Below the pieces are notes generated by a model, which was not told the origin of the DNA, ran no database searches, and was given only the letters and a program-made list of their open reading frames with translations. Positions 27,314 to 47,596 of a stretch of DNA of 64,000 bases are shown one piece after another; the first letter of the stretch is position 1; each line of letters opens with the position of its first letter. The position numbers were made by a program, and so were the translations under genes. The stretch is from Streptosporangium album (GTDB taxonomy: Bacteria; Actinomycetota; Actinomycetes; Streptosporangiales; Streptosporangiaceae). The stretch spans positions 4,588,001 through 4,652,000 of the forward strand of contig NZ_JACHJU010000001.1 in the NCBI RefSeq assembly GCF_014203795.1, given 5' to 3'.

Positions 27314-28972
27314 TCAGCTCCAGGGCGGGGCAGGGGTGGGCAGGCGGTCCTCGTAGTCGCCCAGCCAGGCTCCGAACAGGACCAGGCTCCGCACCCAGAA
27401 CCGGTCGTTCCAGCCGTTGAACCGCGCCAGGGCGTCAGGGCCCTCGGCGACCACGCCGTGAAGCTGCTCCGACAGCAGGGAGGGAACCGCGCCCGCGACC
27501 CGGCTCAGCATCCGGTGTCCGTACTCGCGCGCGGGGGCGGCGGCCGAGCGGAGCGGGACCCGCTGGAGCGGCTGCTTGACCACGTTCGTGGAGGGGAGCG
27601 CGGCGACACGGGGGTTGGCGGTGTGCAGGAGCTCCCGGTAGAAGTGCCCCTTGTCCTTACGGGCCACGCCCACCGAGAGGGCGGCGTCGAAGAAGTCCGG
27701 GTGCATGAAGGGCGCCGCGAACGACACCTCGGGGCCGACCAGGTTGACCGGGGAGCGGGCGATGCCCCGGGCGGTCCGGGTGTGCAGGACCGACAGCGGG
27801 AGTTCGGCCCGGTGCCCGTTGAGCATCGAGGTCGACTGGGTGAAGGCCGCCTCGACCGAGGAGGTGATCCAGGCCGACGCCTCCTCCGACAGGAACGGCA
27901 CCGACGGGGCGCCCAGCGCGAGGGAGCCGAGCAGCGCCGCCTTCCGTTCCGCCTCCGAGGAGGCCTCCAGCGCGGCCCCGCTGACCATGAAGTTCTTCAG
28001 CAGCGGCCCTCCGGCCAGGCCGTCCACCAGGGTCCGGCCGGCCCGGTGCACCTCACGGGCGAACGGGGTGTACCAGGCGTGGTGCGGGGTCAGGAATTCC
28101 AGCCGCCGGGCGACGGCGAGCGCGTCGTCGGGGTAGGCGGCGGCGTCCTGAGTGATCACGCGGTGCCGTACGCCCAGCTCGCGGGTTATCGCGCGGGCGA
28201 AGGCGATGTCGGTGTCGGTGCCGTCGTCGGGGCTCGTCGTCCACGATTCGACGTCGGCGCCCCGGGTCACCGCGACCGAGCAGAGCAGCCGCGAGTCGTA
28301 GCCGCCGCTGACCGGGACGAGCAGCGGACGGCCGTCGAACTCCTTGTAGACCTCGTGCAGGATCTCCAGGATCTCCCCGGCCGTCCGTCCCGCCTCGAAC
28401 GGCTCCTCGCGCAGCCACCGGGGCAGCCTGCGCTCGGTCGAGATCCGGCCCGAGGCCCGGTCGAAGGCCAGTGCGCTGGACCCGGCCAGCCGCTTGACCT
28501 GGGCGTAAGGGGTGTCGTCGCGGAGCGGGAAGGTCAGTTGGATGATCGACGCCCAGGCGTCCCAGTTGATCTCGTACGGCGTGCGGGCCAGAGCCAGCAG
28601 CGGCTCCAGGAGCGAGGAGAAGTAGACGGCCCCGTCCCGGGACAGGTAGTAGACGTCCACCAGGCCGAGCCCGCCGGTGTGCAGCGTGACCCGGTCTCCG
28701 TCGTCGATCAGGCCGGGGGTCTCGAACTCCTCCGCCACGCTGATCCACGGCGCCGCCTCCGTCGGCCTGCGCTCCCCCCAGGCGAACGCCCAGGTCTGTG
28801 CGTCCCGCTGGTAGGGCGGCAGCGGTGAGGAGCTGAACAGTGCCGCCTGGGGGGTTCGCAGCGCGGGCCTCACCCGTGGTCCGGCCCCCCGCAGTGTCTC
28901 CAGGACGGCATCGTCGAGGTGGCCGATGCCGCCGCAGACGTAGGGCCTCACATTGAACGTCGGCCACTGCAC
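27314..28972 (-). CDS. Asparagine-synthase-like protein (degenerate glutaminase domain)
   Basis: 552 residues from a GTG at 28972 with GAGGAG eight bases upstream; the frame continues further 5' without a ribosome site. The C-terminal half is an AsnB-type ATP-pyrophosphatase: PP-loop VPVSGGYDSRLL, FARAITRELGVRH and GLAGGPLLKN. The N-terminal half resembles the Ntn glutaminase domain, but the Cys2 nucleophile needed for ammonia release is missing (it starts QWPTFNV). Such proteins activate carboxylates with ATP in glycan amidation or peptide cyclisation. Being divergent from a glycosyltransferase and close to others, a role in modifying a surface glycan is the best guess. Confidence 0.75.
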   Translation of the reverse strand: MQWPTFNVRPYVCGGIGHLDDAVLETLRGAGPRVRPALRTPQAALFSSSPLPPYQRDAQTWAFAWGERRPTEAAPWISVAEEFETPGLIDDGDRVTLHTGGLGLVDVYYLSRDGAVYFSSLLEPLLALARTPYEINWDAWASIIQLTFPLRDDTPYAQVKRLAGSSALAFDRASGRISTERRLPRWLREEPFEAGRTAGEILEILHEVYKEFDGRPLLVPVSGGYDSRLLCSVAVTRGADVESWTTSPDDGTDTDIAFARAITRELGVRHRVITQDAAAYPDDALAVARRLEFLTPHHAWYTPFAREVHRAGRTLVDGLAGGPLLKNFMVSGAALEASSEAERKAALLGSLALGAPSVPFLSEEASAWITSSVEAAFTQSTSMLNGHRAELPLSVLHTRTARGIARSPVNLVGPEVSFAAPFMHPDFFDAALSVGVARKDKGHFYRELLHTANPRVAALPSTNVVKQPLQRVPLRSAAAPAREYGHRMLSRVAGAVPSLLSEQLHGVVAEGPDALARFNGWNDRFWVRSLVLFGAWLGDYEDRLPTPAPPWS

Positions 28973-29043
28973 CGTGCTGACTCCTCTGTGTCGCGATTGA
29001 CCAAAGGGTATCCTTTCGCCCGGCTCAGAAATCGGAGGACGGC

Positions 29044-31002
29044 GTGGCGAGCGAGCAACTCGAGAGCACACGGTTGGCGTTGCGGGAGGCTGTGGCCGAG
29101 GCGGAACGGGCCGCCGAACTGGCCAGACTGCTCGACGCGGCACAGGCGAAGATCACCGAAGCGGAGCGCGCCACGGCCGAACTGCGTGGAGTCCAGGAAC
29201 GGCTGAGCGAGACCGAGGAACGGCTCGAAGCGGCACAGGCGGCCGAAGAGCGACTCCGCAGGGACCTGGCCGAGCAGCGCTACCAGGCCGAGGTGGCGAA
29301 GTGGAAGCTGTCGTCGGTGCAGGTGGCGCGGTGGTCCCGGCTGGGCGACGCGATCAAGACGGGTAAGAGCAATCCCGTGCGGCTGGCGCGTGGCCTCCGC
29401 GGAGCCGCCAGGCCCGCCAAGCGACCGGCCGCCCCCAAGCGCCAGCCCGTCCCGGTCAAGAGCACCTCCAGGGCGGTCCCGGGTGCGTCCTTCCAGGCCA
29501 CCACGTCCACCAGGACCGTTGGCGGGACGTCGGTCAAGCTCAAGCCGTTCCGCGTCCCGACCGGCCCGAACACCCGCCCGCACCTGACGGTGGCCGTCGT
29601 CGCGGAGCCGCACGCCGAGGCGCTGCTGCGCTACGAGTGGCGGCAGACCACCGGCTTCACGCCCAGGGACTTCGCCCGGGTGCTGTCCGCCGAGGTCCCG
29701 CACCTGCTGCTGGTCGAGTCGGTGACCCACGGGCCCTGGGCCGAGGAGTTGCGCGAGCCGGGCGAGGGCCTGACCGCGCTGCTGTCGTGGTGCGCGGAGC
29801 GGGGCATCCGCACGGTCTTCTGGCACACCCGGGGTGAGGTCGGCGACTTCGCCGCCGCCGCCGGGTTGTTCGAGCACATCGTCACCGCACTGCCCAGGTC
29901 CGTGGCGGCGTGGGGCGCCGCGCTGGCGTCCCGGGAGCCGGATTCCGGCCGCCGCTCGCCCTCGCTGGGGCTCCTGCCCTTCGCCGTCCAGCCCCGCGTG
30001 CACAATCCGCTGCCGCTGGCCGGGGACCGGTTCGACCGGGTGCTCACCCTGGAGGAGCTGCTCCCGGGCCACCTGTCGTATCCGGACGTGCTCACCTCCT
30101 ACCGCTGGCCCAGGGCCGTCTACTGCCCGCCGGGCACGGAGGTCTGGCGGATGGCCGAGCTGGCCGCCTGCGGCACGCCGATCGCGGCGTCTCCGGCGGG
30201 CCCCGCACCGGACGCCGGGACCGTCCCGCCCGGTGTCCAGGACGGCGCCGACGCCCGCCGGGCCCATGCGGCGCTCCGCCGGGCCTATGCCTCCGGCACG
30301 ATGACGGAGAAGGTGGACGACCTGCTCGACGCGGTCGGGCTGCCCAGCGCCCGTGCCACCCTGACCGTCTCGGTGATCATGATCGATCGAGGCGATCTCG
30401 ACCACACCCTCGCCCAGGTCGCGCCGCAGAAGGGCGTCGTCCAGCTGGTGCTGCTGTCGGACGCGCACGACGCCGCGGGGCGGGCCCGCGCCGCGATGCC
30501 GGACAGGGTGGACGTCGTGGTCCGTCCCACCGACCCGGGGCTCACCACCGGCGGCATGCTCAACCGTGCCCTCGACCTGTGCCAGGGCGATCTGGTGGCG
30601 GTCATGGACGCCAGGGACATGTACGGCGAGCACTATCTGACCGATCTCGCCCGCGCCTTCCTGTTCACCACCGCCGACATCGTCGGTAAGGCGGCCTTCT
30701 ACGCCCACCTGCGCGACGTCGCCGCCACGGTGCTGCGCCAGCCGGACGCCGAATACTCCTATCTCCCCGAGATCACCGGCGCCACCTTGCTGGCCCGCCG
30801 TGCCGTCCTGCGCGGCATCGGCTTCGCCGACGTCTCGGAGGGGTGGGACGAGGTGCTGATGCGCCAGTGCCGCACGGACGGGATCAAGGTCTTCTCCGCC
30901 GACCGCTTCGGCTACGTCTGCCTGCGCGATCGCGACCGCTGGCTCCTCGGCTCGGCCCAGCTCGTCGACTACGGCCCGGCCGCTCCGCACGCCCTGGCCT
31001 GA
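29044..31002 (+). CDS. Coiled-coil glycosyltransferase-like protein (CgeB/DUF3880 plus GT2-like domain)
   Basis: 652 residues. Residues 1-85 form a charged coiled coil (ERLSETEERLEAAQAAEERL), then a basic Ala/Pro/Lys linker to about 150. About 180-430 looks like the CgeB/YkvP GT-B-like half (LTVAVVAEPHAEALLRYEW, RVLTLEELLPGHLSYPDV, ELAACGTPIAA). About 440-650 is a GT2-like nucleotide-sugar fold (TVSVIMIDRGDLDHTLAQV, LNRALDLCQGDLVAVMDARD) in which the usual DxD is altered to DARD. The GTG start has GGAGG. Divergent from the asparagine-synthase-like gene across 71 bases. The product is probably a cytoplasmic surface-glycan enzyme. Confidence 0.7.
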   Translation: MASEQLESTRLALREAVAEAERAAELARLLDAAQAKITEAERATAELRGVQERLSETEERLEAAQAAEERLRRDLAEQRYQAEVAKWKLSSVQVARWSRLGDAIKTGKSNPVRLARGLRGAARPAKRPAAPKRQPVPVKSTSRAVPGASFQATTSTRTVGGTSVKLKPFRVPTGPNTRPHLTVAVVAEPHAEALLRYEWRQTTGFTPRDFARVLSAEVPHLLLVESVTHGPWAEELREPGEGLTALLSWCAERGIRTVFWHTRGEVGDFAAAAGLFEHIVTALPRSVAAWGAALASREPDSGRRSPSLGLLPFAVQPRVHNPLPLAGDRFDRVLTLEELLPGHLSYPDVLTSYRWPRAVYCPPGTEVWRMAELAACGTPIAASPAGPAPDAGTVPPGVQDGADARRAHAALRRAYASGTMTEKVDDLLDAVGLPSARATLTVSVIMIDRGDLDHTLAQVAPQKGVVQLVLLSDAHDAAGRARAAMPDRVDVVVRPTDPGLTTGGMLNRALDLCQGDLVAVMDARDMYGEHYLTDLARAFLFTTADIVGKAAFYAHLRDVAATVLRQPDAEYSYLPEITGATLLARRAVLRGIGFADVSEGWDEVLMRQCRTDGIKVFSADRFGYVCLRDRDRWLLGSAQLVDYGPAAPHALA

Positions 31003-31094
31003 GGGCCGACCGGCGAGGTGGCGGACGCGCCGGGACGGGCACGTGCGGCCTCGATCATCTGGCTCCGCGCGTGGTCCGGGCTAGGCTGCCAGGC

Positions 31095-31751
31095 GTGACG
31101 CCCGGTCAGCTCGGCGAGGTCCTCGGCCTGCCGCCGATCCCGCAGGGGACGTGGGCCGAGGAGGCCGTCTACGTCTCGCCTGCCGCGTTGCGCCGGCGCC
31201 GGGCACCCGGGGAGCTGGCGGCGCGGCTGCGTGAGCTGCCGGGGATCGCGGGCGTCCGGGTGCGGGACGACGGTTTCCTGGAGATCGTGGTGGCCGTGCC
31301 GGGGGAGCTCGTCGCGGAGATCGGCCCGGTCGCCTCGCCGTCCCGCGGGGTGTCGCCGTGGGCCGACTCTCCCAGGACCTGGAGCAATCCCGGATTCGTC
31401 GTGCGATACGCGCATGTGCGGGCGGTCGCCGTACAGCGCTGGGCGGCGGAGCTGGGGGTCGGCGGGGAGTTCCGGCCCGAGCTGCTCACCGGCCACCTGG
31501 ACCGGGCGGTCCTGAGGTCGCTGGCCGAGGTGCACGGCAGGCGGGTGAGCCGGGATCCGGGGTGGGCGGCCTATGCCGGGCAGCTCGCCCTGGCCTATCA
31601 CGACGCGTTCGAGCGGGCCCCCGCGCTGCCCGTGGGGGATGAGGAGCCGTCCGCCCTCCACCTGGCGCGGGTACGGCTGGCCGGGGCGGTGCGGGACGTT
31701 CTGGCCGAGGGGCTGGCGGCGCTGGGCGAGGCGGCGCCCGACGTCCTGTGA
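31095..31751 (+). CDS. Stand-alone DALR anticodon-binding-domain protein (ArgRS-like, no catalytic domain)
   Basis: 218 residues. The first 75 resemble the N-terminal Add-1 domain of arginyl-tRNA synthetase (LAARLRELPGIAGVRVRDDGFLEIVV). The rest resembles its DALR helical anticodon-binding domain (NPGFVVRYAHVRAVAVQ..., AGQLALAYHDAFERAPALP, LAGAVRDVLAEGLAALG). The HIGH and KMSKS catalytic core is entirely missing. It occupies the slot directly before lysA where other actinobacteria have full argS. Such lysA-linked DALR proteins occur in related genera; a role in tRNA-Arg binding or regulation is unproven. The GTG start is chosen by frame and domain extent. Confidence 0.8.
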   Translation: MTPGQLGEVLGLPPIPQGTWAEEAVYVSPAALRRRRAPGELAARLRELPGIAGVRVRDDGFLEIVVAVPGELVAEIGPVASPSRGVSPWADSPRTWSNPGFVVRYAHVRAVAVQRWAAELGVGGEFRPELLTGHLDRAVLRSLAEVHGRRVSRDPGWAAYAGQLALAYHDAFERAPALPVGDEEPSALHLARVRLAGAVRDVLAEGLAALGEAAPDVL

Positions 31752-31939
31752 CCGATCCCCCGGCGGGGGCCGGGGGCGGCCGCGCGTCAGGTGTCTTGTC
31801 GGGCGGATCGCCACAAAACGTAAAAATATGGCGCTGAAGTTATTAATGACATGAAAAGTTTCTGTATTTCCGGTTGATCGTGTCTCGCCAATTGGGCACT
31901 CGTCCCACGGGGATCACCGCTTCCGATAGCCTCGATCGG

Positions 31940-33322
31940 GTGAGTCGATTCGCCCACCCCGCCGGTGACCGGCACGCCGAAGTGCGGCCAGAGGAGCGCC
32001 CTCCGCACGCACCTGCCGACCTGAACACACTCGACCCGACGATCTGGCCTCGGACGTCGGGCCGTGCCGGAGGCTCGATCACGGTCGGCGGCGCCGACGT
32101 CAGGGATCTGGTCGAAGAGCACGGCACGCCGCTCTACGTGGTGGACGAGGAAGACTTCCGCTCCCGGTGCCGCGACTACCGGGACGCGTTCGCCGGCGGT
32201 GAGGTCCACTACGCCGGTAAGGCGTTCCTCTGCCGTGAGGTGGCCCGCTGGATCATGCAGGAGGGTCTCGGCCTCGACGTGTGCAGCGCGGGCGAGCTCG
32301 CCGTCGCGCTGAGCGTCGGGTTCCCGCCCGAGCGGATCACGATGCACGGCAACAACAAGTCGCTCGCCGAGCTGGAGAGGGCGATCGAGGTCGGGGTCGG
32401 GCACATCGTGGCCGACTCGTTCGAGGAGATCGCCCGGCTGGGGTTCCTGGCGGCCAAGCACGGAAAGCGGCCCCGGATCATGATCCGGGTGACCGTGGGC
32501 GTGGAGGCGCACACCCACGAGTTCATCGCCACCGCCCACGACGACCAGAAGTTCGGCTTCTCGCTGAGCGCCGGCGCCGCGGCCGAGGCGGCCCGGCGCA
32601 TCCTCGCACTGCCCCAGCTCGAACTCGTCGGCCTGCACTCCCACATCGGCTCCCAGATCACCGACACCGCCGGTTTCGAGGTGGCCGCCCGCCGCCTGGC
32701 CACGCTGCTGGTGCAGATCAAGGAGGAGCACGGCGTCGTCCTGCCGGAGCTCGACCTCGGCGGCGGCTACGGCATCCCCTACGTCGAGGGCGACACCGCG
32801 CCCGACGTGAAGGAGATCGCGGACGGGCTGCGGGAGATCGTCGCCAAGGTGGCCGAGGCCGCGGGCCTGCCGGTGCCCAAGCTCACCGTCGAGCCGGGCC
32901 GGGCCATCGCCGGGCTCGCGGGTGTGACGCTCTACGAGATCGGCACGATCAAGGACGTCGAGGGGCTGCGGACCTACGTCGGCGTCGACGGCGGCATGAG
33001 CGACAACATCCGCACCGCGCTCTACGGCGCCGAGTACACCGCGCGCCTGGCCTCGCGGGAGAGTTCCGCCGAGCCCATGCTCTCGCGCCTGGTGGGCAAG
33101 CACTGCGAGAGCGGCGACATGGTGGTCCGCGACCTGTGGCTGCCGCGGGACCTGGCCACCGGTGACCTGATCGCCGTCGCGGGGACCGGCGCCTACTGCC
33201 GCTCGCTCGCCAACAACTACAACTACCTTCCCAAGCCCGCCGTGGTCGCGGTCAAGGACGGGGTGTCCCGCGTGATCGTCCGCAGGGAGACCGAGGACGA
33301 TCTGCTGAGAGGACAACTGTGA
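31940..33322 (+). CDS. lysA: Diaminopimelate decarboxylase
   Basis: 460 residues. This PLP enzyme converts meso-diaminopimelate to lysine. The PLP lysine lies in [10 protein letters not shown]. Other fold-III motifs are [32 protein letters not shown] and the dimer-interface catalytic Cys in HCESGDMV. The start at GTG 31940 ([14 protein letters not shown]) matches the usual actinobacterial LysA N-terminus. There is no Shine-Dalgarno site, while TAGCCT stands 7 bases before GTG, so a leaderless transcript is possible. The upstream 31800-31900 region is AT-rich for this genome. hom follows after 61 bases. Confidence 0.96.
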
Positions 33323-33383
33323 AACGACCCGAAATCGCAGGCCGCCGGGCGGGCGGAGCGGACGAGAAGGAGAGTGCGACCGG

Positions 33384-34676
33384 ATGGCACTGAAAGTCGC
33401 TCTCCTCGGGTGCGGTGTCGTCGGTTCCCAGGTGATCCGGCTGATGCGCGAGCAGGCCGACGACCTCGCCGCGAGGGTCGGGGCCCCGCTGGAGCTCGCC
33501 GGCGTCGCCGTGCGGAGGCTGGGCCGTAAACGGGACACCGACGTGGACCCGGCCCTGCTCACCACCGACGCCGAGGCCCTGGTCACCCGTGACGACGTGG
33601 ACATCGTCGTCGAGGTGATCGGCGGCATCGAGCCCGCCAGGTCGCTCATCCTGGCCGCGATGAACAGCGGCAAGTCGGTCGTCACGGCAAACAAGGCGCT
33701 GCTCGCCGAGGACGGCGCGACCGTCCACGGCGCGGCCAGGTCCAACAACGCGGACCTGTACTTCGAGGCGGCCGTCGCGGGCGCGATCCCGCTGATCCGG
33801 CCGCTGCGCGAGTCCCTGGCCGGCGACGACGTGCATCGCGTGCTCGGCATCGTCAACGGCACCACCAACTACATCCTCGACAAGATGGACGGAAGCGGCG
33901 CGTCCTTCTCCGACGCGCTGGAGGAGGCCCAGGCCCTGGGATACGCCGAGGCCGACCCCACGGCCGACGTGGAGGGCTTCGACGCCGCGGCCAAGGCCGC
34001 GATCCTCGCCGGGATCGCCTTCCACAGCCGCGTGACGGCCGCCGACGTGCACCGTGAGGGCATCACCGAGATCACCGCGACCGACGTGGCCAGCGCCAAG
34101 GCGATGGGATACGTCATCAAGCTGCTGGCGATCTGTGCCCGCTCCGACGACGGACGCTCCTTCGGCGTCCGGGTGCACCCGGCCATGATCCCCAGGACGC
34201 ACCCGCTGGCGGGGGTCCGCGAGGCGTACAACGCGGTCTTCGTCGAGGCCCGGTCCGCCGGGCAGCTGATGTTCTACGGCGCGGGCGCGGGCGGCGCCCC
34301 GACGGCGAGCGCGGTGCTGGGCGACATCGTGGCGGTGGCCCGCAACCTGCTGGCCGGCACGCGGGGCCCCGAGGAGTCGACCTACGCCGACCTGGCCGTG
34401 CACCCGATGGGTGAGACCGTCACGCGCTACCACGTCTCCCTGGACGTCGCCGACAAGCCGGGCGTGCTCGCCCGGGTCGCCGACATGTTCGCCAAGCAGG
34501 ACGTGTCCATCCAGACCGTCCGCCAGGAGGGGCACGGCGACGACGCCCAGCTCGTCCTGGTCACCCACCGGGCCAGTGACGCGGCGCTGTCGGCCACCAT
34601 CGAGGGCCTGCGCGAGATGGACATCGTCCGTGACGTGGTGAGCGTCATGCGGGTCGAGGGCGAGGAGGCCTCGTAG
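33384..34676 (+). CDS. hom: Homoserine dehydrogenase with ACT domain
   Basis: A 430-residue enzyme that reduces aspartate semialdehyde to homoserine. It has an NAD(P)-binding start (VALLGCGVVGSQVIRL), the catalytic region (GIVNGTTNYILDKM, ALGYAEADPTADVEG, ADVHREGI), and a C-terminal ACT domain (YHVSLDVADKPGVLARVADMF) that normally mediates feedback by threonine. GAGAAGGAGAG lies upstream of the ATG. In other actinobacteria thrC follows directly; here an 11.8 kb glycan block intervenes, and a strong hairpin lies behind the stop. Confidence 0.96.
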   Translation: MALKVALLGCGVVGSQVIRLMREQADDLAARVGAPLELAGVAVRRLGRKRDTDVDPALLTTDAEALVTRDDVDIVVEVIGGIEPARSLILAAMNSGKSVVTANKALLAEDGATVHGAARSNNADLYFEAAVAGAIPLIRPLRESLAGDDVHRVLGIVNGTTNYILDKMDGSGASFSDALEEAQALGYAEADPTADVEGFDAAAKAAILAGIAFHSRVTAADVHREGITEITATDVASAKAMGYVIKLLAICARSDDGRSFGVRVHPAMIPRTHPLAGVREAYNAVFVEARSAGQLMFYGAGAGGAPTASAVLGDIVAVARNLLAGTRGPEESTYADLAVHPMGETVTRYHVSLDVADKPGVLARVADMFAKQDVSIQTVRQEGHGDDAQLVLVTHRASDAALSATIEGLREMDIVRDVVSVMRVEGEEAS

Positions 34677-34693
34677 GCCCGCTCGCCGGTTGC

Positions 34694-34721
34694 GGGCACC
34701 CTCGGCGGACGGAGGGTGCCC
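34694..34721 (+). terminator. Hairpin behind hom
   Basis: A perfect 10-bp stem (34694-34703, GGGCACCCTC, with 34712-34721) and an 8-base loop start 18 bases after the hom stop. The stem extends by a few pairs with one bulged C. Just beyond, GACGCCGTACGGCGTC at 34734-34749 is a further 16-bp palindrome. Together they probably end the lysA-hom transcript. Confidence 0.8.
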
Positions 34722-34847
34722 CGCTCCCGTGCCGACGCCGTACGGCGTCGCCTTCCTGACCCTTTGGTAACGACTGCATCGACAAGCCTTATGGGCTTAT
34801 ATGGTGCTTTTCTGCTCTTCTGATCCGCTGCCCGAAGGGACGTCCCC

Positions 34848-35651
34848 GTGAAGATCGCTCGTTGGGCCGCGGTGCTGCCGGCGGCGCTGGTCGTGCCGGC
34901 GTTCCTGCAACCGGTCTCCCTCGCCGAGAGCGCCAGGCCCCCGAAGGCCAGGACGGTCGTCTCGCTCACCTTCGACGACGGGGACGTGACCCACCTGGCC
35001 ACGGCCCGCATGCTGGAGAAGCGGGGCGTGCGCGGGACCTTCTACGTCAACACCGACACCATCGGGCGCGACCTCAAGCTGAACCGCGAGCAGCTCGCCG
35101 CGATCGCCAAGGGCGGGCACGAGATCGGCGGCCACACGCTGACCCATGTCCGTCTCACCGAGCTGACCCGCAGCCAGCAGCGCGAGCAGATCTGCGACGA
35201 CCGCAGGACACTGGTGGCGTGGGGGTACCGGCCCGCCACTCTCGCCTACCCGTTCGGGTCGGTCGACGCCGACGCCGAGGCGGTGGCCCGGCAGTGTGGC
35301 TACGACGCGGCTCGCGGGGTCGGCGGGCTCAAGGAGTGGGGATGCCCCACCTGTCCGGGTGCCGAGAAGCCGCGCCCGGCGGATCGCTACGACATCCGCA
35401 CGCCGGGCTCGGTCCGCGAGGACACGCTGCTGCGGCAGATGAGGCAGCAGGTCCTCAACGCGGAGAAGACCGGCGGGCTCGTCACCATGGTGTTCCACCG
35501 GGTCTGCGACGGCTGCGGCGTCTACTCGGTGTCTCCCCGGACCCTGGACGGCTTCCTCGGCTGGCTGGTGAGCCGCAAGGCCCACGGCACGGTCGTCAAG
35601 ACCCTCCAGGACGCGGTCGGCGCCCGCTACCGGCCCGTGCCCGGGCAGTAG
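34848..35651 (+). CDS. Secreted polysaccharide deacetylase (NodB/CE4)
   Basis: 267 residues. A Sec signal (KIARWAAVLPAALVVPAFLQ) is followed by a NodB domain with the base Asp and metal Asp in LTFDDGDVT, metal histidines in GGHTLTHV, the arginine-loop region PATLAYPFGS, and a late VFHRVCD. It would remove acetyl groups from peptidoglycan or another extracellular glycan. Extra Cys (WGCPTCPG, CDGCG) could form disulfides or bind metal. It is a single gene with its own promoter region after the hom hairpin, and it opens the glycan block. Confidence 0.88.
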   Translation: MKIARWAAVLPAALVVPAFLQPVSLAESARPPKARTVVSLTFDDGDVTHLATARMLEKRGVRGTFYVNTDTIGRDLKLNREQLAAIAKGGHEIGGHTLTHVRLTELTRSQQREQICDDRRTLVAWGYRPATLAYPFGSVDADAEAVARQCGYDAARGVGGLKEWGCPTCPGAEKPRPADRYDIRTPGSVREDTLLRQMRQQVLNAEKTGGLVTMVFHRVCDGCGVYSVSPRTLDGFLGWLVSRKAHGTVVKTLQDAVGARYRPVPGQ

Positions 35652-35688
35652 GCGCCCGGCCGTCGCCCCCAAGGGCAGGCGGGGAGCC

Positions 35689-39299: not shown

Positions 39300-40996
39300 C
39301 AGGCGGTCTTCCCGTGCCGCATCGCCGTCGCGATGATCCCTCTCAGCGGGCCGCGCCGCTGAGCGTCCTCCACCTGTCCGGCCTCCGCCCGCAGACGTTC
39401 GTTCTCGGCGCGCAGGCTCTCCACCTCGCCTTTCAGCCGTTCCGCCTCGCGTTTCCACCGCGCCGAGCTGGCCCGCCACCTGGCGGGATCCCCGGCGACG
39501 GGCTCCGCCTCCCCGGCGGCCGTGACGCCGAGCTCGTCCGCGCTCACCCAGAACGAGCCGAACAGCTCGTGCACCACGCCGTCGAGGTCATCGGTGCCGT
39601 CGTCCACCAGCGCCGCCCTGGCGAAGGCGGCGGTGCGTTCGAGCCTGGCCGCCCGGATGCCGGTGCCCCCCTCCTCAAGCGCCGCACTCAGCAGGCCGTA
39701 CTCCTCGTCCTCGGCGAGTTTCACCAGGCCGGCGAGGCTTTCGGCGCCGAACGCCCACCCCGCGGGGCAGGTGAGGCGGAACGGCGCGGGCGCGGAGCTG
39801 TGCGGCGTCTCCTCGGTGAAGGAGACGCGCGGCTCGTGGCCGTACAGGTTGCGCACGAGCCGCGCCTCGAGCAGCGGCTCGTCCAGGGAGGAGCGGCGTC
39901 CGCCGGTGAGGGCCGGCCACGGTCCGACCACGGTGACGGCGACGTCGACGAGGGTGCCCGCGAGCGCGCTGTCCACGGTCGCCCGGACGTCCTCGTAGGA
40001 GGCGCCGTGGGCGTCGACGACGACGTGCACGTACGGCACCAGCCAGTGCCTGCGCGGGTGGCTGCGCAGCCAGCGCAGGTCGGGAATGAGATCGGGGAGC
40101 ACCGACCAGTTGTGCCGGTGCACCTCCTTCTCGCGGAGCATGACCGTGGACGGGCCGAGATGCCAGGCGCGGGCCTGCGGGTCGGGGATGAAGACCGCGC
40201 CCGCCTGGGCGAGCCGGAAGCCGAGGTCGGTGTCCTCGCCCATGTTCAGCGCGGTGTTGACCCCGCCGACGCCGCGCAGGAGCGCCAAGGGGACCGACGT
40301 GGTGGCCCCCGAGTGGAGCCGGTAGGCCCCGGCGCCGGCGTCCCGCAGCCACCGGGTCTCCTCCAGCACGTCCGCCCGCCAGGTGTGCGGGGCCGACCCG
40401 TCGAACAGCTTCTCCGTGTCCCCGGCCTGTACGGCCGCGGAGACCTCCTGGGCGCTGGGCCCGTCCTCGCCGGTGGTGAACCGGACGTCGCCGAGCACGA
40501 CGGCGTAGGAGGTGAGATGGTGCCAGCGCATGTGCGCCTCGAGGTGTTCCCGGTCGAGGATCATGTCGGAGTCGACCCAGTGAAGGACGTCGCCGGCCGC
40601 CGACGCCGCGCCGGTCTGGCGGGCCCAGCCCCGCCCCCACCGGCCGTCGGGCACCCGGACGAGCCGGGTGTTCGCCGGGGCGAGCTCGGGGATCCGCAGA
40701 GGTGGGTCGCTGCCGTCGTCGGCGACGATCACCTCTGTCAGGTGTGCGGGGTAGCTCTGCGCGGCCAGCCCGGCGAGCGTGCGGTCCAGCGCCTGCTGGC
40801 AGTCGTGCGCCGGGATCACCACGCTCACCCTGAGGCGCGGTTCCCAGCCGCCCAGGTCGGGCGGGAGCAGCGATCCGTAGTCGTTGTGCCTGATCCGCAC
40901 GCGGGGGACGGCGGTCCGGTCGTCCTCGGAGAGCGGGGTGCGGGCGTCGCGGGGGAGAGGGGAGCCGTTACGGGCGGCGAGGTCGGCCGCGGTCAT
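39299..40996 (-). CDS. GT2-family glycosyltransferase, type A paralogue (copy 2)
   Basis: 565 residues. It has the same plan as the copy at 35689: RVSVVIPAHDCQQALDRTLA, the aspartate motif HWVDSDMILD, MGEDTDLGFRL, a second degenerate half (WLVPYVHVVVDAHGASYEDV, FRLTCPAGWAFGAESLA), and a C-terminal coiled coil (KREAERLKGEVESLRAENER). A 30-residue charged N-terminal extension precedes the shared HNDYGSLLPPDLGGWEP start block. It overlaps neighbours on both sides by 4 bases, so it is in one operon. Confidence 0.8.
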   Translation of the reverse strand: MTAADLAARNGSPLPRDARTPLSEDDRTAVPRVRIRHNDYGSLLPPDLGGWEPRLRVSVVIPAHDCQQALDRTLAGLAAQSYPAHLTEVIVADDGSDPPLRIPELAPANTRLVRVPDGRWGRGWARQTGAASAAGDVLHWVDSDMILDREHLEAHMRWHHLTSYAVVLGDVRFTTGEDGPSAQEVSAAVQAGDTEKLFDGSAPHTWRADVLEETRWLRDAGAGAYRLHSGATTSVPLALLRGVGGVNTALNMGEDTDLGFRLAQAGAVFIPDPQARAWHLGPSTVMLREKEVHRHNWSVLPDLIPDLRWLRSHPRRHWLVPYVHVVVDAHGASYEDVRATVDSALAGTLVDVAVTVVGPWPALTGGRRSSLDEPLLEARLVRNLYGHEPRVSFTEETPHSSAPAPFRLTCPAGWAFGAESLAGLVKLAEDEEYGLLSAALEEGGTGIRAARLERTAAFARAALVDDGTDDLDGVVHELFGSFWVSADELGVTAAGEAEPVAGDPARWRASSARWKREAERLKGEVESLRAENERLRAEAGQVEDAQRRGPLRGIIATAMRHGKTA

Positions 40997-41475
40997 GCCT
41001 CTCCCTCTCGTCCTTCTCGCTCGGCCCGTTCGGTTCTGGCCTCCACCGCGGCCAGGCGGGGCAGCACCTCGTGGACCATCTCCTCGATCTCCAGGCGCTG
41101 GGGCATGGCGGCCATCCGGTCTTCGCCGAGAGAGATCAGGATCGCCTGCAGATCCTCGTCGCGCCTGCGCCCGTCCTCCCTGAGCAGCTCGACGATCTCG
41201 TCCAGCCGGCGGTCCAGCCGCTCCGTGGCGGCCCTGACCTTGGCGAGCTCCGCCTCATAGCGCTTGGCCCTGTTGTCGATGCGCAGGGCTTTGCCGTCGA
41301 CCCTGCGGACGGTCACGACGGCGAGAACCTGGGCGGCGAGCACCATCATGATCGCGCCGAGTATGACGGCCGCCGTCACGGAGATGGCGTCGGCACCCGC
41401 GAGCAGGACCAGCGCGATCAGGACCAGCGAGCCGACGATTACCGCCAGGAGCGTCAGTTTCCGGAGCGTGGGCAT
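40993..41475 (-). CDS. Two-helix membrane protein with coiled coil, first gene of glycan operon
   Basis: 160 residues. Two hydrophobic segments (LTLLAVIVGSLVLIALVLLA and AVILGAIMMVLAAQVLAVVTV) sit at the N-terminus, then a cytosolic coiled coil (AKRYEAELAKVRAATERLDR, LEIEEMVHEVLPRLAAVEAR). I do not recognise a family. It leads a four-gene ATGA/GTGA-linked operon with three large glycosyltransferases whose C-termini are also coiled coils. That makes it a candidate membrane anchor for those enzymes; this is inference. Confidence 0.75.
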   Translation of the reverse strand: MPTLRKLTLLAVIVGSLVLIALVLLAGADAISVTAAVILGAIMMVLAAQVLAVVTVRRVDGKALRIDNRAKRYEAELAKVRAATERLDRRLDEIVELLREDGRRRDEDLQAILISLGEDRMAAMPQRLEIEEMVHEVLPRLAAVEARTERAEREGREGEA

Positions 41476-41565
41476 CCGCGCGTACCTTTCCTACCGCTCT
41501 GTCGTGAGCTGCCATTGGGGAAGGTAATTGAGGCTATCTGCTGTTTAAGAGTAAATATGGCGATA

Positions 41566-41590
41566 AACAGGAAATTTGGAGCTTCCTGTT
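41566..41590. promoter_or_regulatory. Inverted repeat in the divergent glycan-block promoter region
   Basis: AACAGGAA (41566-41573) and TTCCTGTT (41583-41590) form a perfect 8-bp inverted repeat with a 9-base gap. It sits in the AT-rich 144-bp region between the leftward operon (start 41475) and the rightward pair (start 41620). It could be an operator controlling both directions. A related word, TTTCCTGTGT, lies upstream of the GT gene at 46294. Confidence 0.4.
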
Positions 41591-41619
41591 ACCTGTGTGA
41601 CTGCTATCAGTGATCAGCG

Positions 41620-42900
41620 GTGGGCATCCATGTCAAGCCCGGAGAACGGTGGCCGCCGGGCCCGACGCCGCCCGTGGCCGCGGATCCCGCGGCGGCTCCA
41701 GCCCTGGATCCATACCGGATGCCCCCATATGTCGGCTCTTCCGGCCGGGGAGCGCCCGGCCCTCGCTATCCTTCGCTGGTGCCCGCGCAGTCGCCCCCCC
41801 TCTCTGCCGTCCTGCCCGCGACCCCCGCCGGCTTCCAGCGATCGGCGACCGGAGGGACGGCGGAGCTGTCCTGGGCCGGCCAGGGGTGGCTGGCGGACGG
41901 CGAGCCGCTCGGCGACCGGCCGGACGCCACCGAGGTCGCCCGCCTTCGACCGCTGCGCGGCCTGACCGTCCGATGGCCCTCCGCCGCCGTCCCCACCGGT
42001 GCGGTCACCGCCCTGGCCGCGGCAGGGGTGCCGCTGCACGCCGCCGCCTCGCCGGCCTGGGTGGAGCCCCGCCTGGCCCGCCTGCTCGCGGACTGGACGC
42101 CCGAGGAGGGCGTCGGCGGGCCCCGCTCGGTGACCGACCTGCGCAGGGAGGAGCAGAGCGTACGGCTGCGCCGCCACGGCCTCCGCGGTGCTGATGACAC
42201 GGCCGCGCCCAAGGTCAGCGTCGTGATGGCCAGCATGCGCCCGCACCTGCTGGGCTCCGCGCTCACCCAGATCGCCCGGCAGCGGCGGGTCGAGGCCGAG
42301 GTCCTGCTGGCCCTGCACGGCGTCCCCGCCGGCCACGAGGCGGTACGGCGGGCGATACGGGGATGCGACCTGCCGATCACCGTGATCGAGGCGGACGCGG
42401 CCACCCCGTTCGGGGAGGCGCTCAACACGGCCGCCTCCCGGGCGGGCGGTGAGTACGTCGCGAAGTGGGACGACGACGACTGGTACGGCCCCGAGCATCT
42501 GGCCGACCTCCTTCTCGCGAGGTCGTACGCCGGCGCGGACATCGTGGGCGCGGCGGCCGAGTTCTTCTACCTGGAGCCCCTGAACGCCACGATCCGCCGC
42601 ACCGACTACACCGGCGAGATCTGGTCGGACCACGTGGCCGGCGGCACGATCCTGCTCGGCAGAGCCGCCTTCGCCGAACTCGGCGGGTTCCCCGCGCTGC
42701 CCCGCGGGGTGGACGCCGGATTCCTCAAGGCGGCCCACGCGGCCGGGGCGCGCATCTACCGCACCCACGGTCTCGGCTACGTGCTGCGGCGCTCGGTGAG
42801 CGCCGAGCACACCTGGCGGCTCTCGCTCGCCCATTTCCTGCGCGTCGCGACGAATCAGTGGCGAGGCTTCCGTCCGAGCCTGATTCTGGAAACGCCATGA
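41620..42900 (+). CDS. GT2-family glycosyltransferase, type B paralogue (copy 2)
   Basis: 426 residues from GTG 41620; later starts in the Pro-rich first 60 residues are possible. The N-terminal part has ALAAAGVPLHAAASPAWVEP, shared with the copy at 37377. The GT-A domain shows KVSVVMASMRPHLLGSALTQ, VLLALHGVPAG, the metal site KWDDDDWYGPEH, HVAGGTILLGRAAF and a closing TNQWRGFRPSLILE. It lacks the 200-residue N-terminal extra domain of its paralogue. The stop overlaps the next gene (ATGA). Confidence 0.8.
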   Translation: MGIHVKPGERWPPGPTPPVAADPAAAPALDPYRMPPYVGSSGRGAPGPRYPSLVPAQSPPLSAVLPATPAGFQRSATGGTAELSWAGQGWLADGEPLGDRPDATEVARLRPLRGLTVRWPSAAVPTGAVTALAAAGVPLHAAASPAWVEPRLARLLADWTPEEGVGGPRSVTDLRREEQSVRLRRHGLRGADDTAAPKVSVVMASMRPHLLGSALTQIARQRRVEAEVLLALHGVPAGHEAVRRAIRGCDLPITVIEADAATPFGEALNTAASRAGGEYVAKWDDDDWYGPEHLADLLLARSYAGADIVGAAAEFFYLEPLNATIRRTDYTGEIWSDHVAGGTILLGRAAFAELGGFPALPRGVDAGFLKAAHAAGARIYRTHGLGYVLRRSVSAEHTWRLSLAHFLRVATNQWRGFRPSLILETP

Positions 42901-44636
42901 CAGCACGGATCACCGGTAACGACTACCGGAGCCTCACCCCGCCCGAACTCGGCGCCTGGACCCCCTCACTGCGGGTCAGCGTGGTCGTGCCCGCCTACGG
43001 CGGCCAGGACAAGCTCGACCTGGTGCTCGCCGGACTGGCGGGGCAGTCCTACCCCGCCGGCCTGACCGAGGTCATCGTGGTGGACAACGGCAGCGAACCA
43101 CCGCTGCGCCTGCCGGAGATCCGGCCCGAGGGCACCCGGCTCATTACCTGCCCCACCCCCGGCAGGGCCCACGCCCGCAACGCCGGCCTCCGGGCCGCCA
43201 CCGGCGACGTGATCCACTGGCTCGACTCCGACGTGGTCCTGGACCGCCGGTCGGTCGAGGCGCACATGCGCTGGCACCACGCGGCGCCCTACCTCGTGGT
43301 CACCGGCTATCTGCGTTTCACCCCGGCCGGCCTGCCCACCCCCGAGACAGTGGCGGCCACCGACGACCTGGCCGGGCTCTTCGAGCCGGCCGAGCCGCAC
43401 GCCTGGCTGGTGGACCTGATCGAGCGGACCGGCGGTCTCACCGACAACCCGCACCGCGCGTTCAGCCTGCACGTGGGCGGGGCCACCTCGGTCAACGCCG
43501 CGTTGTTCACCCAGGCGGGCCCGATGGACACCGAGCTCATCCTCGGCCAGGACACCGAGATGGGCTACCGGCTCGCCCAGGCGGGCGCGGTCTTCGTGCC
43601 CGAGCCGCTGGCCCGCGCCTTCCACCTGGGCCCCACCATGCGGATGCGTGACAAGGCGCCGATCGACCGGGTCAGCCACGCGTTCGTCGCCGACCGGATC
43701 CCGAGCTACCGCTGGCTCCGCTCCCACCCCGCCCGGCAGTGGAAGGTGCCCTACCTGGAGGTGGTGGTCGAGCCCGCCGGACGGCAGGGGCCGGCGGAGG
43801 CGGACGGGCGGAAGTACGGCTACGACGAGGTCCGCGCGACCGTGGACGCCGTCCTCGCGGGCACCCTGCCCGACGTCGTGGTCACCGTCCCCGGTCCCTG
43901 GGACCGCGTCCGGGCCGAGGGACGCGCGCCGCTGACGGACCCGGACCTGGACCTCGTGCTGATCCAGGGGCACTACGCCCACGAGGGCCGGGTACGTTTC
44001 GTCTCCGGCCCCTCCGGTGAGGCGCCGGCCCTCCCGCCCCACCCGCCGGAGGCCGGGGCGGCTCCGCGGGGCGGCGATCCGCCGGAAACCGGGGTGGCCG
44101 CGCCGTACCGGCTGAGACTGCCCGCAGGGTGGGTGCCCGGGGAGGACAGCCTCGCGCGCCTGCTCGACCTGGCCAGGGACGGCGGGTACGGCCTGGTGGC
44201 GGTGCTGCTGGCCGAGGACTCCAGTGAGGCGGTCGTCGCGGCCAGGCTGGAGCGGACCGCCGCCTTCGCCCGGGCCGCGATCGTCGTGCGGGAGGGCGAG
44301 GACCTCGACGACGCCGTCGAGGACACCTTCGGGATGCTCTGGGTGGACGGCCAGACCTACGGGTTCCTGCCCGAGGCTCGGCAGCTCACCGGACGTCGCG
44401 GCGCCTACCGCGCCAGGACGGAGGCGCAGGCCGAGATCGCCCGCCTCACCAAGGAGACCGAGCGGCTCCGTGCGCAGGTGACCAGATGGCGCGACGAGGC
44501 GGGTCGCTGGCGCAAGAGCGCGGTCGAGATGCGGCGTGAGATCGGCGGGCTGCGCAAGGAGCTGGCCGCGGCCAGGAAGATCGTCCAGTACGGCCTGCTC
44601 TCGTCCGTCAAGCGGGCGATCATCCGCCGCCGATGA
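42897..44636 (+). CDS. GT2-family glycosyltransferase, type A paralogue (copy 3)
   Basis: 579 residues. The shared start block GNDYRSLTPPELGAWTP leads into RVSVVVPAYGGQDKLDLVLA, the aspartate motif HWLDSDVVLD and GQDTEMGYRL, where the usual GED is GQD. The second degenerate half contains a Pro/Gly-rich insertion of about 40 residues (residues 375-415) before YRLRLPAGWVPGEDSLA. The C-terminal coiled coil (RTEAQAEIARLTKETERLRA) ends basic. It is paired with the type B gene by a 4-base overlap, repeating the B/A pairing of the leftward operon. Confidence 0.8.
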   Translation: MTARITGNDYRSLTPPELGAWTPSLRVSVVVPAYGGQDKLDLVLAGLAGQSYPAGLTEVIVVDNGSEPPLRLPEIRPEGTRLITCPTPGRAHARNAGLRAATGDVIHWLDSDVVLDRRSVEAHMRWHHAAPYLVVTGYLRFTPAGLPTPETVAATDDLAGLFEPAEPHAWLVDLIERTGGLTDNPHRAFSLHVGGATSVNAALFTQAGPMDTELILGQDTEMGYRLAQAGAVFVPEPLARAFHLGPTMRMRDKAPIDRVSHAFVADRIPSYRWLRSHPARQWKVPYLEVVVEPAGRQGPAEADGRKYGYDEVRATVDAVLAGTLPDVVVTVPGPWDRVRAEGRAPLTDPDLDLVLIQGHYAHEGRVRFVSGPSGEAPALPPHPPEAGAAPRGGDPPETGVAAPYRLRLPAGWVPGEDSLARLLDLARDGGYGLVAVLLAEDSSEAVVAARLERTAAFARAAIVVREGEDLDDAVEDTFGMLWVDGQTYGFLPEARQLTGRRGAYRARTEAQAEIARLTKETERLRAQVTRWRDEAGRWRKSAVEMRREIGGLRKELAAARKIVQYGLLSSVKRAIIRRR

Positions 44637-44737
44637 CGCTTCCGGGCCCGGCGAGGGGGTCGTCGTGCCCGCCGCCGCGCACCGGCCCCGGCCGTGCCGG
44701 AACCGGCGGCGCCACGGAACGGGGCGGTTGACCCGCC

Positions 44738-46294
44738 TCAGTTCCTCCGGATCGCGGAGCGGAGCCGGGCGAGCTTGGACCTCCGCTTCTTCCTCGCGGG
44801 CGGTTTCTTCGCGGGAGCCGGTTCCTGCGCGGCCTTGTCCGCCTTGTCTGCCCGGTCCTGTGCAGGCTTGTCCGCCTTGCCCGCGGACCCGCCGGCCGGG
44901 GACGGAGGCCGAGCCGGCCAGAACTCCGTCCGGTGGCCGTGCCGTACGCCATGGGTCGCCGTGATCGAGCCGAGGGCGTCGTCGGCACCCAGCAGCCGTG
45001 CCCGGCCCAGGGCCTCGGTCCGTTCCAGCGTCGCCGAACCGTCGTCACCGAGGTCGACGACGAGCATGCCGGAGCGGTCGTTCTGGACCGCCGCGATCAT
45101 CCGTTCCAGGGAGTCGTGTCCCAGCGGGACCGCGACCGGGCCCGTGAACCGGAACGGGGTCGGCGCGGGCGTGGGGGAGACCTCGTCGGCCAGCCGTACG
45201 CGCTCGTCGTGGGCGAAGTGCTCACGCAGCAGCCGCAGTTCGAAGGAGGGATCGCCGAGCACGGGGCGGCGGCCCGAGGACAGCCGTGACCAGGGGGCGA
45301 CCAGGGTGACACGTACGTCGGTCACCGATCCCTCGAGCGCCGCGCTCACCGCCTCGCGCACCTGCCCGCCGGCGCCGTCGACATGGAGCACCACCTCCAC
45401 GTACGGCACCAGCCACCGCCGGCCCTTGTCCTTGCGCAGGTCGCGGCGGAGCGGTACGCGGTGGGCCAGATAGGGGCCGACCGCGCGGACCGCGCGGTCG
45501 CGGTCGCGACGCTGCGCCGGAAGCCCCAGATGCACGGCCTCGGCCGCCATCTCCGGGATGAAGACCACACCGTGCGTGGCCAGCCGGTAGGCGAACTCGG
45601 TGTCCTCACCCCTGAGTACGGCGGGGTCGAGGCCGCCGACGGCGTGGAAGATCTCCCGCCGCATCGACACCGTCGGCCCGGTGCACACGTGGTAGGGGTT
45701 ACGGCTGGTCCGCAGGCCGTCGGTGCGGGAGATCGTCTGCTCGGTGGAGCTGGGCAGCGCGTCCGACAGGTCGAAGACGGCCTTCAGCGAGCCCGCGCGC
45801 ACGCCGTCGTACAGCCGGTCAGGGGCCAGCTCCGGCTCCTCGACGAACTTCTTCGCGCCGATGACGACCAGGTAGTCGGCCAGGTGGTGCCAGCGGGCCA
45901 TCGCCTCGATGTGCTCGCGGCAGACGACCATGTCGGCGTCCAGACGATGGATGATCCGCCCCTGCGCGTCGGCGGCCCCGGTGTTGACCGCGTGGGCGAT
46001 GCCCCAGTCTCCGGGGTCGGCGGTGACGAGCCTGGTGCCCGTCGGGACGATCTCCGGCAGCCGCAGGGGCGGGTCGCTGCCGTCGTCCACCACGATCACT
46101 TCCATGAGATGGCCGGGGTAGGTCTGCGCGGCCAGGGCGGCGAGGGTCAGGTCGAGTCTGCGCTGGCCACCGTGCGCGGGGATGATCACGCTCACCGGGA
46201 GCGCCGGATCCCATTCGCCGAGTGCGGGCGGAACCAGCGGGGAGTAGTCGTTGTGCCGGATCGAGGGCAGGTCGAGCCCCGCTCCATCCGTCAT
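44738..46294 (-). CDS. GT2-family glycosyltransferase, type A paralogue (copy 4)
   Basis: 518 residues from ATG 46294; the frame extends 12 codons to a TTG without a ribosome site. It has the start block RHNDYSPLVPPALGEWDP, then PVSVIIPAHGGQRRLDLTLA, the metal motif HRLDADMVVC and RGEDTEFAYRL, and the second half WLVPYVEVVLHVDGAGGQV. Instead of a coiled coil the C-terminus is a low-complexity Ala/Lys/Asp/Pro tail ending in basic residues (KKPPARKKRRSKLARLRS). It stands alone, convergent with the previous pair and divergent from thrC. Confidence 0.8.
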   Translation of the reverse strand: MTDGAGLDLPSIRHNDYSPLVPPALGEWDPALPVSVIIPAHGGQRRLDLTLAALAAQTYPGHLMEVIVVDDGSDPPLRLPEIVPTGTRLVTADPGDWGIAHAVNTGAADAQGRIIHRLDADMVVCREHIEAMARWHHLADYLVVIGAKKFVEEPELAPDRLYDGVRAGSLKAVFDLSDALPSSTEQTISRTDGLRTSRNPYHVCTGPTVSMRREIFHAVGGLDPAVLRGEDTEFAYRLATHGVVFIPEMAAEAVHLGLPAQRRDRDRAVRAVGPYLAHRVPLRRDLRKDKGRRWLVPYVEVVLHVDGAGGQVREAVSAALEGSVTDVRVTLVAPWSRLSSGRRPVLGDPSFELRLLREHFAHDERVRLADEVSPTPAPTPFRFTGPVAVPLGHDSLERMIAAVQNDRSGMLVVDLGDDGSATLERTEALGRARLLGADDALGSITATHGVRHGHRTEFWPARPPSPAGGSAGKADKPAQDRADKADKAAQEPAPAKKPPARKKRRSKLARLRSAIRRN

Positions 46295-46389
46295 GTCTTC
46301 ATGCCCCTTGTCTGCGTTCCCGCTTGTCAAGTCCTGTCAACCTTATCTTCGGTTGCTTAGGGTTTCCTGTGTAAAGGTGGGAAAGCCCT

Positions 46390-46418
46390 ATGCGTTGTCC
46401 AATGGATGGACAACGCAT
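46390..46418. promoter_or_regulatory. Perfect 12-bp inverted repeat upstream of thrC
   Basis: Arms ATGCGTTGTCCA (46390-46401) and its exact complement (46407-46418) flank a 5-base gap. The repeat lies 95 bases before thrC and 95 bases before the divergent GT gene. There is no U-run. It may be an operator for a dimeric regulator or an RNA hairpin in the thrC leader. Confidence 0.55.
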
Positions 46419-46513
46419 CCCGTCATGGAGCCCATTGCCCGTAGACTCGTTGCTCAACACCGCAGGTAGCAGGTAGGACGCGCATGGTGTAGCCCTGCGC
46501 GGGAGGAGCAATC

Positions 46514-47572: not shown

Positions 47573-47596
47573 CCTCCGCGCACACCATGACGACAT

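Follow-up and report, generated by a model that had tools for sequence, protein, structure and literature searches.

The chondroitin polymerase of Escherichia coli K4 (KfoC or K4CP; PDB 2z86 and 2z87) contains two GT-A domains in tandem, of which A1 adds N-acetylgalactosamine (GalNAc) and A2 adds glucuronic acid (GlcUA) (PMC2889854). A further described system is that of the coiled-coil terminators of O antigens exported by ATP-binding cassette (ABC) transporters, represented by WbdD of E. coli O9a and by the proteins for Klebsiella pneumoniae O4, O7 and O12; in these proteins the polymerase is recruited by the membrane-proximal part, and the distal end of the stalk carries a capping enzyme, in the manner of a ruler (PMC3482155, PMC11231755). 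Here we analyze a block of glycan-type genes that lies between the threonine genes hom and thrC of Streptosporangium album (genome of 9.0 Mb) and that can be compared with both systems. All coordinates refer to the window, namely the whole 64-kb stretch at contig positions 4588001-4652000, unless a locus label precedes them. Few assigned wall-polymer genes are known, to our knowledge, in sporangium-forming actinomycetes. Judged from sequence comparisons, the block is real, old, clade-wide and derived from an older module; we consider it fairly probable that it is a vertically inherited envelope-glycan locus, made from copies of an older three-part module and devoted to membrane-tethered assembly of a polysaccharide.

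Gene Content of the Block

Genes were called from open reading frames and the G+C content of third codon positions (GC3) and then verified with Pfam. The end of hom (34676) and the start of thrC (46514) lie 11.84 kb apart. As the original prediction had stated, this interval contains a NodB-type polysaccharide deacetylase, six proteins with a PF00535 glycosyltransferase family 2 (GT2) domain and one membrane protein, which has 160 residues and two strong hydrophobic helices; its coiled-coil character is judged by eye only. We label as GT_A the proteins combining a GT2 domain with a second domain, and as GT_B those having an N-terminal extension and a single GT2 domain. The deacetylase, hereafter abbreviated as PSDA (34848-35651, forward strand; PF01522, E 1.1e-24), has a hydrophobic N-terminus with a Kyte-Doolittle (KD) peak at residue 8. 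It is followed on the reverse strand by GT_A1 (35689-37380; PF00535, 1.2e-16), GT_B1 (37377-39299; 2.4e-9), GT_A2 (39299-40996; 2.7e-17) and the membrane protein, TMcc (40993-41475), whose transmembrane (TM) hairpin and helical stalk are deduced from KD19 values of 3.05 and 2.65 and from alignment with relatives. On the forward strand then come GT_B2 (41620-42900; 3.9e-8), in which an N-terminal domain precedes the single GT2 domain, and GT_A3 (42897-44636; 2.2e-16), while GT_A4 (44738-46294, reverse strand, with its ATG at 46294 read by eye) adjoins thrC and is divergent from it. All four GT_A proteins are tandem GT2 proteins, the second domain being degenerate in GT_A1, GT_A2 and GT_A3.

Overlaps of 1-4 bases link TMcc, GT_A2, GT_B1 and GT_A1 in this order on the reverse strand (TGATG stop/start between GT_A2 and GT_B1, four bases between GT_B1 and GT_A1), as well as GT_B2 and GT_A3 on the forward strand (ATGA). 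The two operons diverge from an intergenic region of 144 bp (41476-41619). The tight operons and divergent spacer that had been predicted are therefore present. Promoter and terminator scans of 31700-47700 found none, other promoter types not being covered.

Relationship of GT_A Proteins with Chondroitin Polymerase

A profile built from 45 GT_A sequences has the two chondroitin polymerase sequences of K4CP as its top matches (E 4e-37, the next best match having 1.1e-14), and its alignment with K4CP is not confined to domain 1 but extends into the second. The model predicted by AlphaFold for GT_A4, with a predicted local distance difference test score (pLDDT) of 90.2 and a predicted template modelling score (pTM) of 0.87, matches K4CP with a Foldseek value of 4.6e-29 and, in VIA-align, with Z 29.4 over 405 residues at a root-mean-square deviation (rmsd) of 3.0 and 22% identity. 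Residues 7-456 of the model align to residues 122-626 of 2z87, indicating that a second GT-A domain is present in the predicted structure. The next family reaches Z 22.7 and covers one domain only. Pasteurella heparosan synthase 2 gives a weaker match (Foldseek 1e-14; rmsd 18.6 over 338 residues), while the wall teichoic acid glycosyltransferases TarS, TarP and RmlT, which have the GT2 catalytic fold in common with GT_A4, match in their catalytic part with Z 18.6-20.3; K4CP alone spans both domains at low rmsd. EpsD, an exopolysaccharide glycosyltransferase (NF041875), is the best NCBIfam match of the four GT_A proteins, far below the cut-off (89.6-103.8 bits against 370), and its best stretch ends by residue 284, within domain 1. 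None of the ten proteins submitted to the NCBIfam scan, which left PSDA outside, reaches a cut-off. The model of GT_B2 (pLDDT 81.9) has a single GT-A domain.

The catalytic motifs of K4CP are retained in domain 1 of the 45 GT_A sequences: the first aspartate of DDG is present in 45/45 and the second in 42/45, and both aspartates of DXD and that of ED are invariant. Conversely, the columns of the domain 2 DDG contain no aspartate in any of the 45 sequences, the first being Ala or Gly in 44, the second Pro in 41 and the third Trp in 40; two outgroup sequences (L044 and L047) show a DD displaced by a few residues. The columns of the domain 2 DXD are not conserved either, in a part where the alignment is weak. 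With the motifs of domain 1 kept and the DDG of domain 2 lost, GT_A resembles a K4CP-type double enzyme in which the A1-like site alone is alive; the addition of a second sugar would require another protein as partner. A C-terminal helical and basic tail, seen by eye, also distinguishes GT_A from K4CP. A search for viral copies gave 20 pattern matches, none of them a relative.

The glycosyltransferases might alternatively add single sugars to another polymer, such as a teichoic acid, in the manner of TarS, TarP and RmlT, without building any chain. These enzymes are indeed among the structural neighbors of the GT_A catalytic domain, and 5 of 20 stretches examined elsewhere in the family have TagF-like matches in the vicinity of GT_A (PF04464 being confirmed in the two scanned); within the block itself, neither Pfam nor profile searches detected a PF04464 glycerophosphotransferase of the TagF type. 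K4CP nevertheless matches both domains of GT_A4 and stands well ahead in Z score, and the paired GT_B-GT_A operon, with up to six glycosyltransferases, fits the synthesis of a repeat unit better than decoration, which leaves the single-sugar alternative rather unlikely, yet the most serious of those considered here.

TMcc and Coiled-Coil Terminators

The TM hairpin of TMcc follows from hydropathy, its stalk being taken as coiled coil by eye only. Longer TMcc proteins in the alignment (364-449 residues as called) combine the TM hairpin and a variable helical stalk with a methyltransferase, and all four that were scanned contain a PF13578 methyltransferase domain. The TMcc of the window ends after the stalk and so does not have the C-terminal methyltransferase that the alignment reveals in many relatives. 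Among 60 island-side loci with TMcc, seven, from four genomes of Microtetraspora and Microbispora, carry the form with methyltransferase, to which the genomes G022 and G125 can be added.

The features apparently shared with WbdD-type terminators are the predicted membrane anchor, the helical stalk (by eye), the methyltransferase at the far end in relatives and the adjoining glycosyltransferase genes. The differences are that the anchor is an N-terminal TM hairpin, that the methyltransferase is a C-terminal PF13578 domain, that no kinase is seen and that the organisms are Gram-positive; in the window, moreover, there is neither a methyltransferase nor an exporter beside TMcc. The likeness is one of layout, and membership is not claimed, since the terminator domain and the exporter are absent from the block. 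Pfam recognized no ABC exporter at 27314-46294; an ABC gene pair further left (21911-24940) is MacB-like by eye.

Two other connections were considered and abandoned. Streptomyces PdtA (SCO2578), first taken for a glycosyltransferase, is described as an LCP-domain protein. The methyltransferase was also considered as the maker of madurose (3-O-methylgalactose), a sugar reported for S. roseum (PMC3035251), and the idea was dropped as the genome of the window has no TMcc with methyltransferase at E 1e-15.

Distribution and Ancestry of the hom-thrC Island

We surveyed 150 genomes of the family, in which hom had a match in 148 and thrC in all; 147 were entered (the row of G035 was left out) and 137 gaps could be measured, the remaining 10 having split contigs or no thrC row among the matches listed. 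The two genes lie less than 3 kb apart in 73/137 genomes (363-1680 bp, median 493) and more than 3 kb apart in 64. Of the latter, 61 genomes belonging to 24 genera have a GT_A of island type somewhere in the genome, its position within the gap being read in the fetched loci; their gaps measure 3.2-19.4 kb (median 9.0). The other three wide-gap genomes belong to a single genus, g52. Outside the family, 55 of 56 genomes of the class have a spacing of 351-519 bp, and one of 2683 bp. The statement that hom and thrC are contiguous in other actinobacteria consequently stands for nearly all these genomes and for 73 of the 137 within the family.

In a quick tree computed for 51 genomes with lysA, hom, thrC and rho, all genuine islands fall in one clade of 39 genomes with support of 100. 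(The labels in this tree follow the gap alone; hence G003, which has a contig break and GT_B2 after hom in L030, is marked 'none', and G135, with an unrelated insert, 'island'). Outside this clade, 11 of the 12 family genomes are contiguous and the twelfth is G135. G025, with a gap of 552 bp, falls inside the clade with support of 88, which would correspond to one gain and one loss or, equally short, to two gains. Because the outgroups and the family genomes outside the clade are nearly all contiguous, the contiguous order is, on this comparative evidence, ancestral. That hom and thrC were first apart and later joined in other lineages, an order for which no support was found, is hardly credible given the contiguity of the 55 class genomes and the 11 family genomes outside the clade; the distant actinobacteria sampled did not exhibit the split order that would have spoken for it. 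Comparing the interval across the family and its outgroups, as originally proposed, therefore dates the island as old and confines it to one clade. A glycan gene set does sit inside the threonine locus, as had been supposed, but it is shared by 24 genera and not particular to S. album. The comparisons point to an old trait of the Streptosporangium-Nonomuraea-Microbispora clade, inherited vertically; a recent insertion or strain-specific block is ruled out by the gap survey and the tree.

The order of genes was followed in 80 named loci, the best of 330 relatives found with the GT_A4 profile, a choice that renders islands without GT_A4 invisible (G022 seems to be one); the genomes of these loci overlap in part with those carrying G labels. 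The named matches closest to the window are from Streptosporangium minutum and S. canum. GT_A4 is the recognized island gene nearest to thrC in all 80 loci, divergent from it in 79, at a distance of 107-501 bp in 75 and of 1.6-2.9 kb in five Sphaerisporangium loci. The cassette GT_A1-GT_B1-GT_A2-TMcc is complete in 14 and absent in 30 of the 44 loci with a whole hom-thrC interval, and partial in none; counting all 80 loci, some of which are cut, it is complete in 34, absent in 36 and partial in 10.

These data bear on the possibility that the gap is merely a permissive insertion site that gathers unrelated genes, its glycosyltransferases having no common pathway. Other inserts do occur: dnaE in G123, genes for MFS and methyltransferase proteins, genes of PMT_2 type, and the 3.5-kb gap of genus g52, filled with unrelated genes in the single genome read (L033). 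Against them can be set the constant position of GT_A4 beside thrC in the 80 loci (which were found via GT_A4), the cassette being complete or absent in whole intervals and never partial, and the operon that the same gene families form elsewhere; we thus regard a chance gathering as improbable. The independent g52 insert (L033:6594-9697) comprises four open reading frames, one without Pfam match and three small unknowns. The dnaE gene is full-length, encodes DNA polymerase III alpha and lies inside the island of G123 (L005:10676-14224), the closest genome of the same genus in the tree. Genes of PMT_2, DUF2079 and AftA_N type are found in three islands.

In a quick tree of the glycosyltransferases, GT_A4, GT_A3 and GT_A1 each form one clade across genera (starred support of 100, 100 and 99, respectively), and GT_A2 forms a single clade for 8 of its 10 sequences. 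GT_A3 clusters (99, starred) with five copies adjoining genes identified by eye as purA and fba, and GT_A4 is placed among copies from other genera (94, not starred). Tandem duplication in situ as the sole source of GT_A1 to GT_A4 is unsupported by this tree.

The Module Outside the Island

GT_A is detected at E 1e-80 in 91 of the 150 family genomes, including 25 of the 73 with contiguous hom and thrC. These copies of GT_A at other sites in relatives show that hom-thrC is not where the system originated. The original prediction had regarded glycan genes scattered singly in relatives as evidence against it; this is partly the situation found, with GT_A mostly standing in an operon after GT_B in the 20 stretches read, which we chose among the GT_A matches listed and which come from 19 genomes. 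In 19 of them GT_B is the recognized gene before GT_A on the same strand, and in 16 the pair is preceded by a gene for TMcc or for TMcc with methyltransferase (TMcc-MT), the methyltransferase being shown by profile in 15 of these 16 (the profile itself includes 7 of the 15 among its rows). A deacetylase occurs in three stretches, with a weaker fourth, and a gene resembling asparagine synthase in one. This older TMcc-MT/GT_B/GT_A operon seems to have been relocated or expanded to give the island.

Beyond the family, 295 other genomes of the phylum contain GT_A (E 1e-40) in 8 cases, GT_B (E 1e-20) in 10 and both in 4, against 0.27 expected (P 4e-5; 4-5 best candidates scored per genome). In G257 the two are divergent neighbors with an ABC-2 exporter adjoining GT_A, and G267 has three GT_A and three GT_B genes within 16 kb. 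In L047 an ABC-2 exporter adjoins GT_A, and a CDP-alcohol transferase and a nucleotidyltransferase lie 5-6 kb away, and a UDP-sugar dehydrogenase is present in the stretch of L042 with a GT_A relative. This older, membrane-linked module, the core of the island, probably helps to assemble a cell-surface polysaccharide.

Many of the genera involved produce glycosylated antibiotics, and genes of PMT_2 type are present in two islands (L051 and L061), so the genes could instead glycosylate a natural product or secreted proteins. Yet Pfam recognized no biosynthetic or sorting genes in the block, its vertical inheritance across 24 genera is unlike that of a natural-product cluster, and two distant relatives have a polysaccharide-type exporter or a gene for nucleotide sugars in their neighborhood. 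We consequently give this possibility little credence.

Some neighborhoods deserve mention by themselves. In L154 (TMcc-MT/GT_B/GT_A) and L159 (GT_B/GT_A) the neighbors are a GT2-TagF fusion and CDP-alcohol transferase genes that are twice paired with a sulfotransferase gene, one of each kind being confirmed by Pfam. In L045, a fusion of cytidylyltransferase and PEP phosphomutase (2383-3690) lies beside a GT_A relative that has a CWB2 cell-wall-binding gene on its other side, a neighborhood that hints at a phosphonate-bearing wall polymer. Among the literature matches listed, no title deals with a hom-thrC glycan island or a TMcc/GT_B/GT_A module, subscription journals being mostly outside coverage.

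A Possible Working of the System

The gene content, order and ancestry described above, together with the predicted fold and the pattern of motif retention and loss, can be accommodated in a common scheme in which complex formation, donor sugars, capping and product are inferred. TMcc would act as a two-helix hairpin anchor at which the soluble GT_A and GT_B proteins assemble on the inner side of the membrane. In every GT_A only one GT2 site would be live, corresponding to the GalNAc site of chondroitin polymerase, the second GT-A domain being dead, and GT_B would supply the partner GT2 site. Such pairs would then lengthen a repeating glycan bound to a lipid carrier that is synthesized elsewhere, the secreted PSDA, where present, trimming N-acetyl groups outside. 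In the many relatives that possess it, the stalk methyltransferase could cap and measure the chain; the window has only the anchor and the stalk.

A bolder proposal, which we advance as speculative, is that the module is a Gram-positive counterpart of the coiled-coil-ruler assembly: a stalk, bearing a capping methyltransferase in many lineages, would carry glycosyltransferase pairs that make a wall polymer of much of the Streptosporangiales. The glycosyltransferases would descend from a chondroitin polymerase-like double enzyme whose lost site was replaced by a partner protein, and the threonine genes of one lineage would harbor an expanded, mostly cap-less version.

Several observations weigh against the assembly of a membrane-tethered polysaccharide by the block. 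Content varies widely, the gaps measuring 3.2-19.4 kb; of the 44 whole intervals, the cassette is missing in 30, while PSDA was found in only 7 and GT_A3 in 37. The set had been predicted to be an undescribed glycan assembly system; it is coherent and below NCBIfam cut-offs, but represents part of a pathway only, as Pfam recognized no exporter, Wzy-type polymerase, initiating transferase or nucleotide-sugar gene at 27314-46294. Capping cannot be general, because the methyltransferase is missing from 53 of the 60 island-side loci that have TMcc and the genome of the window has no other TMcc-MT at the threshold given above. No GT_A is present in G025 at E 1e-80. In the phylum, GT_A occurs without GT_B in 4 of 8 genomes and GT_B without GT_A in 6 of 10, and the two lie 15 and 25 kb apart in G211 and G262, respectively. 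The fold of GT_B2 favors no particular GT2 family among solved structures, and the coiled coils are judged by eye.

Genes and Signals Flanking the Island

To the left of the block, lysA (31874-33322, forward strand; PF02784/PF00278), whose start is uncertain, is followed by hom (33384-34676, forward; PF00742, 3.6e-68), the sole PF00742 match in the genome. Directly after hom, the segment 34677-34847 contains a GC-rich perfect hairpin, GGGCACCCT...AGGGTGCCC, read by eye; the scan found no T-tailed terminator there. To the right, thrC (46514-47572, forward; PF00291, 1.1e-72, and a TIGR00260 match) precedes thrB (47706-48716, forward; PF00288, 7.7e-13). As to the marks of a mobile genomic island, none of the 14 genes scanned at 27314-48716 has a Pfam match to integrases or transposases, the whole window contains no tRNA, and an Rfam scan of 20000-52000 gave no match.

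The glycan-type genes that had been noted left of lysA are present, but form a separate association. CC_GT (29044-31002, forward; PF13641, 2.9e-6) combines an N-terminal helical or coiled-coil stretch, seen by eye, with a GT2 domain, and is divergent from an asparagine synthase-like gene (27314-28972, reverse), which has PF00733 at E 2.2e-4 (21.4 bits for a cut-off of 21) and a TIGR01536 match below cut-off (2.3e-7). CC_GT sits left of lysA in many islands, and the asparagine synthase-like match lies beside it in 24 of 42 loci holding CC_GT, several of which end too early to tell. The pair is considered separate from the island because it is kept in G025, where hom and thrC are contiguous. The following gene, 31095-31751 (forward), which the original prediction had passed over, encodes an NrtL-like, ArgS-related protein (NF045898, 1.3e-20; 74 bits, below the cut-off of 340), a housekeeping neighbor with relatives in island and outgroup loci alike (sequence cluster from 30 loci); a higher-scoring antisense open reading frame had hidden it from GC3 gene picking.

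The split leaves thrC with its own spacer, shared with GT_A4, in which the dyad TGTCCA-N5-TGGACA (46396-46412) was found by pattern scans of spacers. Among the 74 named loci whose spacer does not exceed 500 bp, 41 contain it with up to two mismatches, as compared with about 0.5 of 74 in shuffled spacers, the pattern being derived from the same spacers; with up to one mismatch, 41 of the 43 matches in all loci examined lie in the GT_A4/thrC spacer. In most cases it stands 82-84 or 106-115 bp from the thrC match. The spread is smaller towards thrC than towards GT_A4, but this provides no evidence, as the search was limited to 78-140 bp from thrC. The dyad may be a thrC operator; pair counts favor neither side as to its reading as an RNA hairpin.

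Significance of the Island

The threonine gene set, contiguous in almost all other class members sampled, is here split on a clade-wide scale; this split is useful as a clade marker and for asking how thrC may have gained its own control. For the biology of these actinomycetes, the block and its older module offer a set of genes that is conserved and open to testing, occurs in named strains of Nonomuraea, Microbispora, Planobispora and other genera, and comes with a structural pointer, the predicted resemblance to chondroitin polymerase, and a mechanistic one, the putative stalk and its methyltransferase.

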